A DNA stretch of 64,000 nucleotides from Vicinamibacteria bacterium (GTDB lineage Bacteria; Acidobacteriota; Vicinamibacteria; Fen-336), in contig JAMPXO010000008.1 of assembly GCA_023701125.1 (NCBI GenBank), positions 1-64,000 of the forward strand, given 5' to 3'. A program made the translations under genes and the position numbers. Each line of letters opens with the position of its first letter. Position 1 is the stretch's first letter. Positions 25,513 through 64,000 of the stretch are shown one piece after another. The notes beneath the pieces were generated by a model. The model saw only the letters and a list, made by a program, of their open reading frames with translations. It made no database searches and was not told the DNA's origin.

Positions 25513-25965
25513 ATGAACACGGCTTCGCTGTCCACGTTGGCCCTGGCGCTGGCTCTCAGCCTGCCCGCCGCCGCGCAGTCGAGCGTCGCACCCGAGGACG
25601 CGGAGGGCATCCGCCGCGCCGCGCTCGATTACGCCGAGGGCTGGTACGCGGGCGATCCTGCGCAGATGGAGCGGGCGCTGCACCCCGACCTCGCCAAGCG
25701 CATCGCGCAGCCGGGCAAGGACGGCGGCCGCGCCCGGCTCGAGCACATGGGGGCCCTGCAGCTCGTCCAGGGCGTGCGCGCGGGCTACGGCAAGAACACG
25801 CCCGCGGACAAGCAGTCGAAGGACGTGACGATCCTCGATGTCACGGGCAACGCGGCCACGGTCAAGCTGGTGATGGCGGGCTGGGTCGACTACCTGCACA
25901 TCGCCCGGCTCGACGGGAAGTGGAAGATCGTGAACGTGCTGTGGGAGATCACGACGCCGCGCTGA
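25513..25965 (+). CDS. Secreted NTF2-like (lumazine-binding type) protein
   Basis: A 150-residue protein with a Sec signal peptide (LALALALSLPAAAQS, cleavage near residue 21). The mature part is a cone-shaped NTF2-like fold with IRRAALDYAEGWYAGDPAQMERALHP at the start and WVDYLHIARLDGKWKIVNVLWE at the end, matching the putative lumazine-binding (PF12893-type) group. Such proteins bind small ligands or act in the periplasm; no catalytic residues can be named. The ATG follows CCGGAGGA. It lies between the trpF-like gene and the DsbA-like gene, all on the plus strand. Confidence 0.75.
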   Translation: MNTASLSTLALALALSLPAAAQSSVAPEDAEGIRRAALDYAEGWYAGDPAQMERALHPDLAKRIAQPGKDGGRARLEHMGALQLVQGVRAGYGKNTPADKQSKDVTILDVTGNAATVKLVMAGWVDYLHIARLDGKWKIVNVLWEITTPR

Positions 25966-25996
25966 GGGTTATGCTCCGGGACTCCAAGGAGCCCCG

Positions 25997-26860
25997 ATGA
26001 GACAGACTCGCTGGATCGCCGCAGCCCTCGTCCTGTGCGCCGCGCTCGCCGCGTCGCCCGCCTTCGCCGCCGAGCCGTCCGCCGAGCTGAAGGCGCGGGT
26101 CGAGCGCTTCCTCGTCGACCACTTCCGGCTGGCGCCGCCCGACAAGGCCGAGGTGCTGTCGGCGTGGACGGCCGAGCCGCCGGAGCAGTGGCGCTTCCTG
26201 GTGCGACTGACCCGCGGCGGCAAGGCGGAGGAAGCGGTGTACGCGGCCACCGCCGACTTCAAGGTGTTCGCGCTCAGCCGGCTGTTTTCGTTCCGCGACA
26301 TCCGTGCGGAAAACCGCGCAAAGGTCTCGCTCGAAGGCGCGCCGGTGCGCGGCGCCGCAGCAGCACCGGTCGCGATCGTCGCCTTCTGCGACCTGCAGTG
26401 CCCCGACTGCGCCGCGGCGATGGGCAAGCTGAAGGCCGTGCTGCCGGCGTACGAGGGTCGCGCGCGCCTGGTCTTCAAGAACTACCCGCTCAACCACGCC
26501 CACCCGTGGGCGGAGTCCGCCGCGATCGGCGCTCGCTGCGCCTACGAGCAGAAGCCCGAGGCGTTCTGGGCGCTGCACGATCACTTCTTCGAGAAGCAGG
26601 CCGACGTCAACGTCCGCAACGTGCGTGACGTGGTGGCGGAGGTGGCCGCGAAGGCCGGCGCCGATCGCGCGAAGGTGCTCGCCTGCTACGACGCGAAGGC
26701 CACCCTCGGCGTCGTCCAGCGCGACGTCTACGACGCCAACAAGCTCGGCGTGCGCGGCACGCCGACGTTCGTGATCGACGGCCGCTTCGTGTTCAGCGAG
26801 ACGTTGACGGAGGAGCAGTTCAAGGAACTGATCGAGGAGGCCCTCGCCGCCCGGAGGTAG
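25997..26860 (+). CDS. DsbA-family thiol-disulfide oxidoreductase
   Basis: A 287-residue exported protein. Signal peptide in residues 1-24 (ends AFAAE). An N-terminal domain of about 90 residues precedes a thioredoxin fold with the active site CPDC (C135-C138; a further Cys at 131) and the cis-proline loop GTPTFVI (about 254-260). The insert AHPWAESAAIGARCAYEQ is typical of the DsbA/DsbG-like group with four-residue Cys motif. It likely makes or shuffles disulfides in the periplasm. The DsbB-like protein at 61848 could be a distant partner. The ATG is preceded by AAGGAG. Confidence 0.9.
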   Translation: MRQTRWIAAALVLCAALAASPAFAAEPSAELKARVERFLVDHFRLAPPDKAEVLSAWTAEPPEQWRFLVRLTRGGKAEEAVYAATADFKVFALSRLFSFRDIRAENRAKVSLEGAPVRGAAAAPVAIVAFCDLQCPDCAAAMGKLKAVLPAYEGRARLVFKNYPLNHAHPWAESAAIGARCAYEQKPEAFWALHDHFFEKQADVNVRNVRDVVAEVAAKAGADRAKVLACYDAKATLGVVQRDVYDANKLGVRGTPTFVIDGRFVFSETLTEEQFKELIEEALAARR

Positions 26861-60284: not shown

Positions 60285-60292
60285 GCCCGGCC

Positions 60293-61660
60293 ATGGCCTC
60301 CTCGGCGAGCGACGACCGGGACCGATGCGGCCCGCTCGACCGCCTGCTCGGGGCGTTCTCCGACGTGCGGCCGGGCGAGGGCGCGCGAGCGCTGATGATG
60401 CTCGCCAACATCTTCCTGATCCTGGTCTCGTACTACATCATCAAGACGGTCCGCGAGCCGCTGATTCTCAACACCGAGGTGCCCGAGTTCCTGCAGGCGT
60501 TGGGCATCCGCGGGCCCGCCGAGGTCAAGACCTACGCCGCCGCCGGCCAGGCCCTGGTGCTGATGCTGTTCATCCCGGCCTACAGCTGGTTCGCCTCCCG
60601 GGTCGACCGCATGCGGCTGATCGTGGGCGTCACGCTGTTCTTCGTCGCCAACATCGTCGCCTTCGCGCTGGCGGTGACGCTGGGGGTGCCGTTCGTCGGC
60701 GTCGCCTTCTACGTGTGGGTGGGTTTCTTCAGCCTGTCGGTGATCGCGCAGTTCTGGTCCTACGCGAACGACATCTACAGCAAGGACGCCGGGAACCGGC
60801 TGTTCCCCATCATCGGCATCGGCATGACCGCGGGCACGCCGGTCGGGGCCTGGATCGCGGCCCAGCTCTTCAAGGCCCACGTGCCCGTGCAGACGCTGCT
60901 GTACGTCTCGGCTGCGCTCCTGTTCGGCAGCCTCGCCCTCTACGTCGTGGTCAACCGCGGCGCGCACCACGCCGACCCGGGCGGCTCCGCGGGCGCTGCG
61001 ATGGCGACGGGGGACGGCTTCTCGCTGGTGCTCCGCAATCGCTACATCGGCCTGATCGCGCTGCTGCTGGTCGTGCTCAACATCGTCAACACCACCGGCG
61101 AGTACATCCTCAGCGACCTCGTGGTCGAAGAGGCGAAGGCGCTGGCCGCGTCGGACGCGGCGTTCGACAAGAACGGCTACATCGGCGCCTTCTACGGCAG
61201 CTATTTCTTCTGGGTCAACGTCGCGGCCGTGTTGCTGCAGGCCTTCGTCACCTCGCGCCTGGTCAAGCGCTTCGGCCTGGCCGGCGTCCTGTTCGCGCTG
61301 CCGCTGACGGCGCTGGCGGCGTACGGCTTCGTGGCCGTGGGCGCCACCATGGCGATCGTGCGCTGGGCCAAGACGGCCGAGAACTCGACCGACTACTCGG
61401 TGATGAACACCGCGCGGCAGCTGCTGTGGCTGCCGACGACCCGCGAGGAGAAGTACAAGGCCAAGCAGGCGGTCGACAGCTTCTTCGTGCGGCTGGGCGA
61501 CCTGGCCGCCGCCTTCGTCGTCTTCGCGGGCACCGCCTGGGTCGCGCTCGGCGCCAGCGGCTTCGCCATCGTCAACCTCGGCTTCATCGTCCTCTGGCTG
61601 GCGCTGGCCGTGGCGCTGGTGCGTCGGAACCGCGCGCTGTGCGCGGACGGGTCCTGCTGA
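60293..61660 (+). CDS. Npt1/Npt2-family (ATP/ADP translocase-like) transporter
   Basis: A 455-residue 12-helix membrane protein of the TLC family. ALMMLANIFLILVSYYIIKTVREPLIL, FWSYANDIYSKDAGNRLFPIIGIG and STDYSVMNTARQLLWLPTTREEKYKAKQAVDSF are characteristic; the last corresponds to the conserved C-terminal helices of nucleotide translocases. In free-living bacteria the family's substrate is unclear. It begins 8 bases after the peptidase gene stop on the same strand, so it may be part of one transcript. No nucleotide-utilising neighbour was found. Confidence 0.85.
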   Translation: MASSASDDRDRCGPLDRLLGAFSDVRPGEGARALMMLANIFLILVSYYIIKTVREPLILNTEVPEFLQALGIRGPAEVKTYAAAGQALVLMLFIPAYSWFASRVDRMRLIVGVTLFFVANIVAFALAVTLGVPFVGVAFYVWVGFFSLSVIAQFWSYANDIYSKDAGNRLFPIIGIGMTAGTPVGAWIAAQLFKAHVPVQTLLYVSAALLFGSLALYVVVNRGAHHADPGGSAGAAMATGDGFSLVLRNRYIGLIALLLVVLNIVNTTGEYILSDLVVEEAKALAASDAAFDKNGYIGAFYGSYFFWVNVAAVLLQAFVTSRLVKRFGLAGVLFALPLTALAAYGFVAVGATMAIVRWAKTAENSTDYSVMNTARQLLWLPTTREEKYKAKQAVDSFFVRLGDLAAAFVVFAGTAWVALGASGFAIVNLGFIVLWLALAVALVRRNRALCADGSC

Positions 61661-61847: not shown

Positions 61848-63314
61848 CTACCGGGCGAAGGTGGTGACCGTGCCGTCTTCGCCGAGCACGAGCCACTCGC
61901 CGTCGCGCAGGGCGAGGCCCGTGGGACGCGTCACGCCGTCGAGGGCGTGGGCCGCGACCACCTCGTGCGTCGCCAGGTCGATCTCGAGCAGCGTCGAGAA
62001 AGCCGCGCTCAGCGCGTGCAGCCGGCCGGCCTCGACCGCGATGCCGGTGACGAAGTACTCGTCGAGCGCGCGGCCTTCAGCCGCCAGCGCGAGACCGGCG
62101 CCGAGCGCAGGCAGGAACTCCTCCGACAGCGTCATGTCGCGGCGGTCGAAGCGGGACACGACCAGCTTCTTGTAGCGGCGGCTGGGGACGGTGACCGTGT
62201 AGAGCGACCGGCCCGCCGCGTCGAAGGCCAGCGCGCCGACGTAGTTCATCCGCGCCCGCACCGTGGCGAAGCGGCCGCGGCTCCTCTCCTCGAAGCGCTC
62301 ACCGCCTGCCAGGAAGAAGCGCCAGTTCTTCGCGCGATCGGCGCCCTCGTTCTCCGCCAGCACGACGTAGCTCTTGTTCTCGCCGAGCGCGGCGACCGTG
62401 GTCGGGTCGAGCCAGGCGACGCCCGGCAGGCCATCGCCGAGGCTGACCGAGAAGCCCGGGTCGACGCGCACCTGGTTGAGGACGCGGGCCAGCGAGGCGT
62501 CGAGGATCGCGACCTGGTGGCGGTCGGTGGTGACCAGGAAGCGGCCCGTCGAGCCCTCCCAGGCGAGGTCGGCCGGCGCCCCGTCGAGGGCGGCCGCGAT
62601 CTGCGTCCGCGACTTCGGGGCGAGCCGCGGCAGGTCGCGCAGCGGGCCGCGCGCGGGATCCGCCTCGAGGCCCGCGAGCGACGGCTTCTCGACGTCGTAG
62701 CGACCGCGCAGCGAGACGGGCGACGGCTCCCACTCCTCGAGCGACCAGACCCAGGTGGCGGGGTCGAACGAGAAGCGGACCGGGTCGCTCTGGCCCATGT
62801 AGGGCGGCGGGCCGGTCGAGGCGAAGGCCTGGATCACGTTGCCCGCGATGGCGAACAGGAACACGCCGATCGCCAGCCGCCCGAGCGGGCCAGGGTCGCG
62901 CGGCTCGGCCGTCGCTGCGCCGTCGCGCATCGCCAGCAGCAGCAGCGCGATCGCCACCACGAACACCCAGAAGATGAACGCCGACCAGGTGTAGGTGTGG
63001 GCGCCGAAGAACAGGCCGGCGAAGCCCTGGCCGACGTCGCGCACCCAGTGCAGGGCGGAGTGGCGCACGCCCATGTACAGGCCGTGGGCGGCGATCAGCA
63101 GGCCGAGGCCGATGTAGCGCGGCCGCGGCCCGAAGCGGAGGATGAACGCGCACACCAGCCCGACCAGCGCCATCGCCGTCCGCTGCTGCCAGCACAGCAC
63201 GCAGGGCGACTCGCCGTGGACGAAGCCGAGCCACCACGCCGCGACCCCGATCGGCGCGATCGACACGGCGAGCAGCAGCACCGCGAGCAGTCGATACAGG
63301 CTCTCGTTGCGCAT
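61848..63314 (-). CDS. DsbB-like membrane domain fused to a beta-propeller
   Basis: A 488-residue protein. Residues 1-160 hold about five membrane helices and the DsbB-type motif SPCVLCWQQRTAM (C38, C41), as in the quinone-reducing cysteine pair of DsbB. The second periplasmic cysteine pair of E. coli DsbB is absent. Residues 200-488 are a soluble propeller with blades around FLVTTDRHQVAILDASLARV, GVAWLDPTTVAALGENKSYV and GLALRDGEWLVLGEDGTVTT. It may oxidise or sense thiols at the membrane. It could pair with the DsbA-like protein at 25997. The 55-residue membrane gene lies just upstream. Confidence 0.7.
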   Translation of the reverse strand: MRNESLYRLLAVLLLAVSIAPIGVAAWWLGFVHGESPCVLCWQQRTAMALVGLVCAFILRFGPRPRYIGLGLLIAAHGLYMGVRHSALHWVRDVGQGFAGLFFGAHTYTWSAFIFWVFVVAIALLLLAMRDGAATAEPRDPGPLGRLAIGVFLFAIAGNVIQAFASTGPPPYMGQSDPVRFSFDPATWVWSLEEWEPSPVSLRGRYDVEKPSLAGLEADPARGPLRDLPRLAPKSRTQIAAALDGAPADLAWEGSTGRFLVTTDRHQVAILDASLARVLNQVRVDPGFSVSLGDGLPGVAWLDPTTVAALGENKSYVVLAENEGADRAKNWRFFLAGGERFEERSRGRFATVRARMNYVGALAFDAAGRSLYTVTVPSRRYKKLVVSRFDRRDMTLSEEFLPALGAGLALAAEGRALDEYFVTGIAVEAGRLHALSAAFSTLLEIDLATHEVVAAHALDGVTRPTGLALRDGEWLVLGEDGTVTTFAR

Positions 63315-63317
63315 CGG

Positions 63318-63485
63318 CTAGTAGTTGAAGGGCGGCAGCACGGAGCCGCGCGAGCCGACGAAGAAGAGGAAGGCCGTCAGCGCCGCGCTCAGCAGCAGCA
63401 GGCGGAATGCCAGCGACTCCTTCTCGGGCCGCCGCAGCACGAGGAATCCGGTCGTGAAGATGAGCGCGAAGTTGAGGAACTCCAT
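63318..63485 (-). CDS. Small membrane protein, 55 aa
   Basis: A short gene upstream of the DsbB-like gene on the same strand. The product starts MEFLNFALIFTTGFLVLRRP, has a second hydrophobic stretch around LLLLSAALTAFLFFVGSRGS, and ends FNY. Its stop is three bases before the next gene's start codon, so the two are probably co-translated. No Shine-Dalgarno stands out. The close packing, sequence character and fit to the next gene support its reality. Confidence 0.55.
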   Translation of the reverse strand: MEFLNFALIFTTGFLVLRRPEKESLAFRLLLLSAALTAFLFFVGSRGSVLPPFNY

Positions 63486-63607
63486 GGCGGGCGACGCTAC
63501 GCCTCGCTCGTCGGAGGGTCAATCCCGGGCGTCACGCAGGGAACCGGGCCGCGAGGACCGTGACAAGCGGGCGCGAAGGGTCCAGCATCGAGTCAGGGGA
63601 GGGGCCC

Positions 63608-64000
63608 ATGAGCCGAAGCGTCGGGCGGTGCGCGCTGCTGCTGGGTGGCGCGTTGGTGGTGGCCTGCGGTGGTGGACAGACCGGAGCGCCGCCCGCGAGC
63701 GCCCCGCCGCCCGCCTCGACGGTGGTGGCGTCGCCATCGCCGTCCGTCGCCGCGGTCCCGACGGCGCCCGCCGCATCGCCCGCGGCGGTGGCCCCCGCGG
63801 CTCCGACCCGTCCGCCCGCGGCGCCCGATTCGACGCTGCCCGCGAAAGTTTCCTCCACGCCCTCCACGCCCGCCGCGCCCGCGGCCACGCCCGCCCCAGC
63901 GGCGGTCGCTGCCGCGCCGGCTCCGCGCTCTTCGCCGGCGGCGCCCGCAGGCGTGATCACGTTGCCCGCCAAGCCAGGCACGGTGCACTTCGACCACGGT
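63608..64000 (+). CDS. Lipoprotein with Ala/Pro-rich linker, possible multiheme cytochrome (truncated)
   Basis: The ATG at 63608 opens a lipoprotein signal with lipobox VVACGG (Cys near residue 21). Residues 25-110 are a low-complexity Ala/Pro/Ser/Thr linker. The last visible residues, GVITLPAKPGTVHFDHG, resemble the start of the cytochrome c7/c3 domain that precedes CxxCH heme sites. The gene runs past the right end of the window, so no heme motif is seen and the cytochrome call is tentative. If correct, it would be an outer or periplasmic electron carrier. Confidence 0.5.
   Translation, partial: MSRSVGRCALLLGGALVVACGGGQTGAPPASAPPPASTVVASPSPSVAAVPTAPAASPAAVAPAAPTRPPAAPDSTLPAKVSSTPSTPAAPAATPAPAAVAAAPAPRSSPAAPAGVITLPAKPGTVHFDHG

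Follow-up and report, generated by a model that had tools for sequence, protein, structure and literature searches.

A putative dba–dsbI operon in an acidobacterium encodes a DsbB-like protein with a single loop cysteine pair and a predicted beta-propeller

The window analysed here, the whole 64,000-nucleotide stretch at the start of contig JAMPXO010000008.1 of a Vicinamibacteria bacterium, carries near its end two adjacent genes that, judged from sequence, appear to form an acidobacterial dba–dsbI operon of the kind known from Campylobacter and Helicobacter. Our confidence in this assignment is much higher than in the full mechanism proposed below. Single-pair, propeller-bearing DsbI accompanied by Dba is already known in Campylobacter and Helicobacter, as the available excerpts of PMC4460558 and PMC3167755 describe; this anatomy defines the DsbI family, so the architecture that had looked odd at first pass is not new. 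What may be new is the spread of DsbI to Acidobacteriota, Gemmatimonadota, Pasteurellaceae and a Salmonella plasmid, its possible kinship with propeller-less, DUF5993-linked DsbB proteins that have a cysteine pair in the tail, and the glutaminyl-cyclase-like fold predicted for its propeller. Among the matches listed in a search of the open-licence literature we found no paper on DsbI outside Campylobacterota, and the available part of PMC4460558 makes no mention of Pasteurellaceae, Acidobacteria or Gemmatimonadetes.

The locus and its predicted fold

61848..63314, minus strand: dsbI, DsbB-like five-helix domain plus predicted five-bladed beta-propeller, 488 aa (ORF, NCBIfam NF050065, Pfam DsbB, AlphaFold2 fold)
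62805..63314, minus strand: predicted five-helix membrane domain, residues 1–170 (AlphaFold2 fold)
63192..63203, minus strand: CVLC loop-1 redox pair, residues 38–41 (both cysteines in 45/45 non-redundant full-length proteins)
62988..63065, minus strand: loop-2 region, residues 84–109, the site of the second cysteine pair of classical DsbB, with none here (0/45 proteins with a cysteine)
61851..62642, minus strand: predicted five-bladed beta-propeller of glutaminyl-cyclase-like fold, residues 225–488 (AlphaFold2 model, VIA-align)
63318..63485, minus strand: dba, 55-aa accessory ORF (NCBIfam NF050061 match, position 3 nt upstream of dsbI)

The dsbI frame is open from an ATG start to a 488-aa product, residues 8–90 of which match Pfam DsbB above the curated cut-off (E = 3.6e-12). 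NCBIfam NF050065 (disulfide bond formation protein DsbI) aligns with residues 5–477 of 488 over positions 6–488 of its 498 (E = 7.1e-86); the score of 288.6 bits lies below the equivalog cut-off of 800 set for this Campylobacter-specific model, against which the Campylobacter locus L072 scores 900.9 and the trimmed Aggregatibacter locus L060 scores 314.2. Because of this cut-off, we file the window protein, on its sequence, in the wider DsbI family and outside the equivalog, Campylobacter DsbI proper.

Besides the CVLC pair, the only cysteine of the protein is C55 in helix 2; the loop-2 region (84–109), the tail and the propeller have none. The loop-2 region is nevertheless conserved, with H85, D93, G97 and T107 in invariant alignment columns. 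R45 aligns with an arginine of the Escherichia coli DsbB motif, in an alignment that is itself weak (E = 0.45). PMC4460558, as far as its excerpts go, describes DsbI proteins as having five helices, a CXXC and a conserved arginine, and, citing Raczko et al. 2005, as lacking the second cysteine pair and having a periplasmic propeller instead; it gives the same five-helix DsbB-like domain, one CxxC, conserved arginine and C-terminal propeller for DsbI of Campylobacter jejuni and Helicobacter pylori (HP0595). The window protein shows each of these marks: C38, C41 and R45 are invariant in alignments of both 17 and 30 rows, loop 2 has no second pair (the hallmark of classical DsbB), the AlphaFold2 model has five helices followed by a propeller, and dba lies directly upstream across a 3-nt gap. 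The first-pass annotation had thus correctly read a protein with only the first DsbB pair and an added propeller, features that hold across the family and that had already been stated for Campylobacter DsbI (PMC4460558 and PMC7089426, in excerpt); the 55-aa ORF upstream was absent from it.

That ORF matches the NCBIfam Dba model NF050061 over residues 1–54 of 55 (E = 5.4e-12), at 45.4 bits and thus below the model cut-off of 90. Its stop codon stands 3 nt before the dsbI start, and the two genes are probably translationally coupled. In Campylobacter, dba likewise lies directly upstream of dsbI (PMC3167755; 55 aa in L072); excerpts of the same paper place the C. jejuni genes 11 bp apart, report their translational coupling, and describe degradation of DsbI in E. 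coli when Dba is missing.

The AlphaFold2 model of DsbI, built from a 30-row alignment, has a mean pLDDT of 83 and a pTM of 0.74. Its helices span residues 3–32, 42–61, 65–93, 107–128 and 142–167, and the propeller occupies residues 235–488 with block pLDDT values of 81–98; the stretches of low pLDDT are 89–105 in loop 2, 174–179 and 193–207. Five blades is our reading of the strands listed for the model, and it agrees with the best fold matches. Among the top Foldseek chains, VIA-align ranked 2iwa and 3mbr best, both plant-type glutaminyl cyclases (Z 22.0, 213 and 212 residues, r.m.s.d. 2.6), followed by 3qqz, the C-terminal domain of E. coli YjiK (Z 21.4, 222 residues); all three we take to be five-bladed propellers. 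Further matches were clearly lower, at Z 16.5 or less. Although the propeller fold is alike across the plant-type glutaminyl cyclases and the YjiK domain (Z 20.9–22.0 over 211–222 residues), sequence identity to the DsbI propeller is only 11–18%, Pfam glutamine cyclotransferase is absent among the matches listed for DsbI (from which weak matches may have been filtered out) and the best hit of a PDB sequence search with the DsbI profile had an E value of 0.2. Because of this low identity and the lack of a listed sequence-family match, we describe the modelled propeller as glutaminyl-cyclase-like in fold and make no claim of enzyme identity.

Two other genes flank the locus. Beside dba, and divergent from it, a plus-strand gene at 63560–64000 runs on in the contig as far as about 64261 (L026:561-1262). 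Its product is a class III (c3/c7-like) cytochrome c; four CxxCH motifs can be read in it, and its start is lipoprotein-like. The rough gene calls beside dsbI in L029 and L052, the two most closely related named loci, do not include this gene. Downstream of dsbI and convergent with it is a plus-strand gene at 60290–61660 whose product is similar to nucleotide transporters of the ATP/ADP (TLC) type (Pfam TLC, E = 8.9e-12), which would be unexpected if the host is free-living.

Conservation and spread of DsbI

The closest named relatives of the window protein are encoded by the metagenome-assembled genomes Vicinamibacteria bacterium ACD1 (77% identity) and Acidobacteria bacterium ACD2 (76%). In a set of 198 genomes that includes the window's own, 24 match DsbI: 22 have the N-terminal part (21 at full length and one cut by a contig end), and the other two are G164, a C-terminal fragment lying at the end of a contig, and G018, a weak match to an ordinary DsbB. 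A scan of named organisms, which overlap with those of the 198-genome set, gave 51 dsbI loci from Acidobacteriota, Gemmatimonadota, Pasteurellaceae (Aggregatibacter and Pasteurella), Helicobacter and Campylobacter. One more locus lies on a Salmonella plasmid; its DsbI is 33% identical to that of the window. Against the loci found in Campylobacter and Helicobacter, which do not include C. jejuni and H. pylori themselves, identity is 29–35%. The presence of this gene pair in Acidobacteriota, Gemmatimonadota and Pasteurellaceae alike points to a module that is either old or often transferred and that functions beyond the Dsb network of epsilonproteobacteria.

The small upstream gene travels with dsbI. 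We found dba in the window and in all 21 relatives of the 198-genome set that hold the 5′ end of dsbI, and in 47 of the 51 named loci, with 55 aa in 45 of them and 54 aa in two. Among the other four, L054 begins close to the end of its contig, the 5′ end of L070 is broken, and the two Helicobacter suis loci (L068 and L069) lack dba. The Salmonella plasmid gene is preceded by a 59-aa dba-like ORF that matches NF050061 weakly (E = 0.018).

For cysteine counts, 64 full-length rows were collapsed to 45 at 97%, after exclusion of truncated, split, broken or unrelated rows (L023, L024, L025, L056, L058, L067, L070, L075, L076, L077 and L079); L051, in which CILC is present on reading, is also outside the counts. 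All 45 non-redundant proteins, the window's included, keep the CxxC. None has a cysteine in the loop-2 region (84–109) or in the tail (165–215; STGPPPYMGQSDP in the window protein), and three have two cysteines in the propeller. The residues invariant in the 30-row alignment include G30, S36, P37, C38, C41, W42, R45, H85, D93, G97, T107 and W110 in the membrane domain, and P211, D285, K314, T351, R353, P377, E399 and S436 in or before the propeller; several of them, such as H85 and D93 in loop 2 and K314, R353 and E399 in the propeller, offer themselves for mutagenesis.

Three trivial explanations were considered for the architecture. That the protein is a normal DsbB whose second pair had been misread is ruled out by the absence of loop-2 cysteines from all 45 proteins. 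An assembly artefact is ruled out by the fused frame itself, which occurs in 21 of the 198 genomes (own included; a 22nd is cut by a contig end) as well as in five named groups. A pseudogene is not supported, as the frame is open and 76–77% identical to those of same-genus genomes.

A fusion had also been open to doubt should relatives keep two separate genes, one of them a normal DsbB. The first part of this holds in 3 of the 51 named loci, two in C. gastrosuis (L076 and L077, the latter known from ORF coordinates and lengths alone, which give the same arrangement) and one in C. majalis (L079), where dba is followed by a DsbB half of ~240 aa and, as a gene of its own, a ~300-aa propeller whose beginning looks like a signal peptide. 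The second part does not: on reading, neither L076 nor L079 has a loop-2 pair in its DsbB half, and both are nested among fused DsbI rows in the tree. These two loci therefore speak for gene fission and do not refute the fusion; C. majalis also has a fused copy (L066).

Classical DsbB shares with DsbI the CxxC and arginine of loop 1, but has its second pair in loop 2, and its open frames of ~150–200 aa have no propeller. By reading of match ranges, 31 of the 198 genomes have one Pfam DsbB match each, 22 of them to DsbI and nine to classical-like proteins, and never both; the DsbI matches extend to about position 85 of the 148-position profile, and the other nine span it as classical DsbB does.

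DsbB proteins with a tail cysteine pair

A Vibrio campbellii record led us to propeller-less DsbB proteins of 179–204 aa in 22 plasmid records (seven from Serratia, seven from Salmonella, five from Pantoea and one each from Vibrio, Legionella and Pandoraea). We opened ten loci with 11 such genes, some of them near-copies of one another. Each of the 11 encodes the loop-1 pair and, immediately behind the stretch aligned with DsbI helix 5, a CGxxxC motif in the tail, and each has a small, hydrophobic ORF of 51–56 aa lying 7–13 nt upstream. Counted by reading the sequences, none has a loop-2 pair, and those of L098 and L112 carry a lone cysteine near the start of loop 2. The small ORF belongs to Pfam DUF5993 in the loci tested (one of the two in L028, and L099, L109 and L112) and, according to record annotation, in L096, L097, L098, L100, L110 and L111. 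The V. campbellii locus (L028) has two tandem pairs of small ORF and DsbB, whose DsbB proteins are 66% identical to each other, and on two Pantoea plasmids (L100 and L111) a phytochelatin synthase gene follows the DUF5993–DsbB pair, joined in L100 by one for gamma-glutamyltransferase.

These DUF5993-linked proteins, from plasmids of Pantoea, Serratia, Salmonella, Vibrio and Legionella, resemble DsbI in being DsbB-like without a loop-2 pair, but they have no propeller, and their second pair stands in the C-terminal tail where DsbI has its propeller; the CGxxxC after helix 5 is missing from the window protein. Aligned by hhalign, the profiles of the two groups match as far as and including helix 5 (E = 1.9e-22). 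A tree was built from 54 rows after four near-copies had been set aside from the whole set: 41 DsbI, 8 tail-pair and 5 classical DsbB, the last out of nine found among the 198 relatives. In it, DsbI and the tail-pair group are split from classical DsbB with support of 100/99, a value that comes with a program warning that the long branches of the tail-pair and classical groups meet. Monophyly of DsbI itself has support of 33/0 in the same tree, so a single gain of the propeller is not established, and a single clade of Campylobacterota DsbI is neither supported nor rejected (AU p = 0.335).

We tentatively suggest, while regarding it as somewhat doubtful, that a single family of five-helix DsbB proteins has split into two branches, DsbI and the DUF5993-linked proteins, its second redox module having moved from loop 2 to behind helix 5; there one branch would have it as a cysteine pair in the tail, while in the other a propeller that docks a partner would have taken its place. 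Each branch would need its own tiny membrane subunit, DUF5993 or Dba. The two small proteins are alike in size and place only; hhalign (P = 0.085) does not support them as one sequence family. If the two-branch reading is true, DUF5993 gains a function, and the sister group gives it a testable role; the tail-pair proteins would also be a natural comparison for a DsbB that works without the loop-2 shuttle. DUF5993 has three matches in the 198 relatives, none above the cut-off. In the literature found, as far as excerpts go, it appears only in an expression table, where its gene is among those differentially expressed under copper shock in Erwinia amylovora (PMC12542790).

Electron flow, candidate partners and rival readings

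The explanation that, taken as a whole, we lean towards is that DsbI, with Dba, would oxidise a dedicated thioredoxin-fold partner and pass the electrons to quinone, alongside VKOR. The loop-1 CxxC would be coupled to quinone by analogy with DsbB, and the partner would have to react directly with this pair, because there is no pair in loop 2 or the tail. The propeller, presumably facing the periplasm, would dock the partner, and Dba may be needed to make or stabilise DsbI. Electrons would usually run from partner to CxxC to quinone, leaving VKOR as the general oxidase. Against this stand profile scores far under the Campylobacter-specific cut-offs (288.6 of 800 and 45.4 of 90 bits for DsbI and Dba).

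VKOR occurs in 178 of the 198 genomes, with one match in the window's, and in 20 of the 22 that have a DsbI N terminus; it was not found in G117 or in G161, the latter 83% complete. The window's genome encodes four DsbA-like thioredoxin-fold proteins as well, and because of these and VKOR, whose presence in the host departs from the Campylobacter/Helicobacter type, DsbI looks like an accessory to a VKOR-based system. One DsbA-like protein with a CPDC motif (Thioredoxin_4, at about 25934–26860 on the plus strand) lies in the same window and is a candidate partner.

Gene neighbourhoods were surveyed through 131 genes, taken from rough composition-based calls after removal of five near-duplicate loci, low scores and genes of more than 1,100 aa; 117 were scanned, and the 14 omitted were mainly long ones together with two propeller pieces. 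No dedicated partner stands out: the 25 Pfam families listed, out of 132, each occur in 2 to 4 of the 117 neighbours, and no DsbA-like family is among them.

Running DsbB chemistry in reverse is energetically uphill, which counts against a reductive DsbI, whose single CxxC would take electrons from quinol and hand them to a partner able to repair thiols in the periplasm, giving protection against peroxide. We consider this reading rather unlikely, but the direction of DsbI is disputed in print. For C. jejuni, excerpts of PMC7089426 and PMC12428200 report no interaction of DsbI with DsbA1 or DsbA2, and propose a reductive pathway, the dsbI mutant having been the most peroxide-sensitive of the strains compared; AhpC/TSA and rubrerythrin, each in two of the 117 neighbours, would fit, as an anecdotal count with no background computed. 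The H. pylori data point the other way, as HP0231 accumulates in reduced form without DsbI (PMC3463561, in excerpt); in the same organism, according to the available text of PMC4597128, most HP0231 is still oxidised and motility is kept when DsbI is missing, which suggested other routes to its authors. Of the first-pass proposal that electrons pass from quinone to a bound partner rather than DsbA, a partner other than classical DsbA stays plausible, and the direction resembles the C. jejuni proposal (PMC7089426 and PMC12428200) and runs opposite to the HP0231 data (PMC3463561).

Oxidation of small thiols by DsbI, with the loop-1 pair acting directly on cysteine or glutathione and the propeller or tail gating access, is improbable. 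It draws on the phytochelatin synthase genes by the sister-group DsbB in two Pantoea loci, one with gamma-glutamyltransferase, on DMT-family transporters in five of the ten opened sister-group loci, and on a methionine gamma-lyase near the Salmonella plasmid DsbI. These neighbours belong to sister or distant genes on plasmids, for which the gene tables are incomplete, and not to the window. Least probable is a sensor of thiol or quinone state, with the CxxC sensing redox and the propeller signalling to a bound regulator. Propellers of this kind often bind other molecules, yet beyond the single CxxC and the propeller themselves we found nothing in favour of the thiol sensor raised at first pass; the 25 neighbour families listed, out of 132, contain no conspicuous regulator family, and DsbI is reported to affect the redox state of a thiol oxidase (PMC3463561, in excerpt).

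One cluster of molybdopterin oxidoreductase-like ORFs lies near dsbI in L056, L066, L076, L077 and L078, as read from a six-frame clustering that otherwise consisted mainly of shadow ORFs and served for nothing else; Pfam Molybdopterin occurs in 3 of the 117 scanned neighbours. On the Salmonella plasmid (L027:2616-7942), dsbI lies near genes for pflB, acetate kinase and methionine gamma-lyase.
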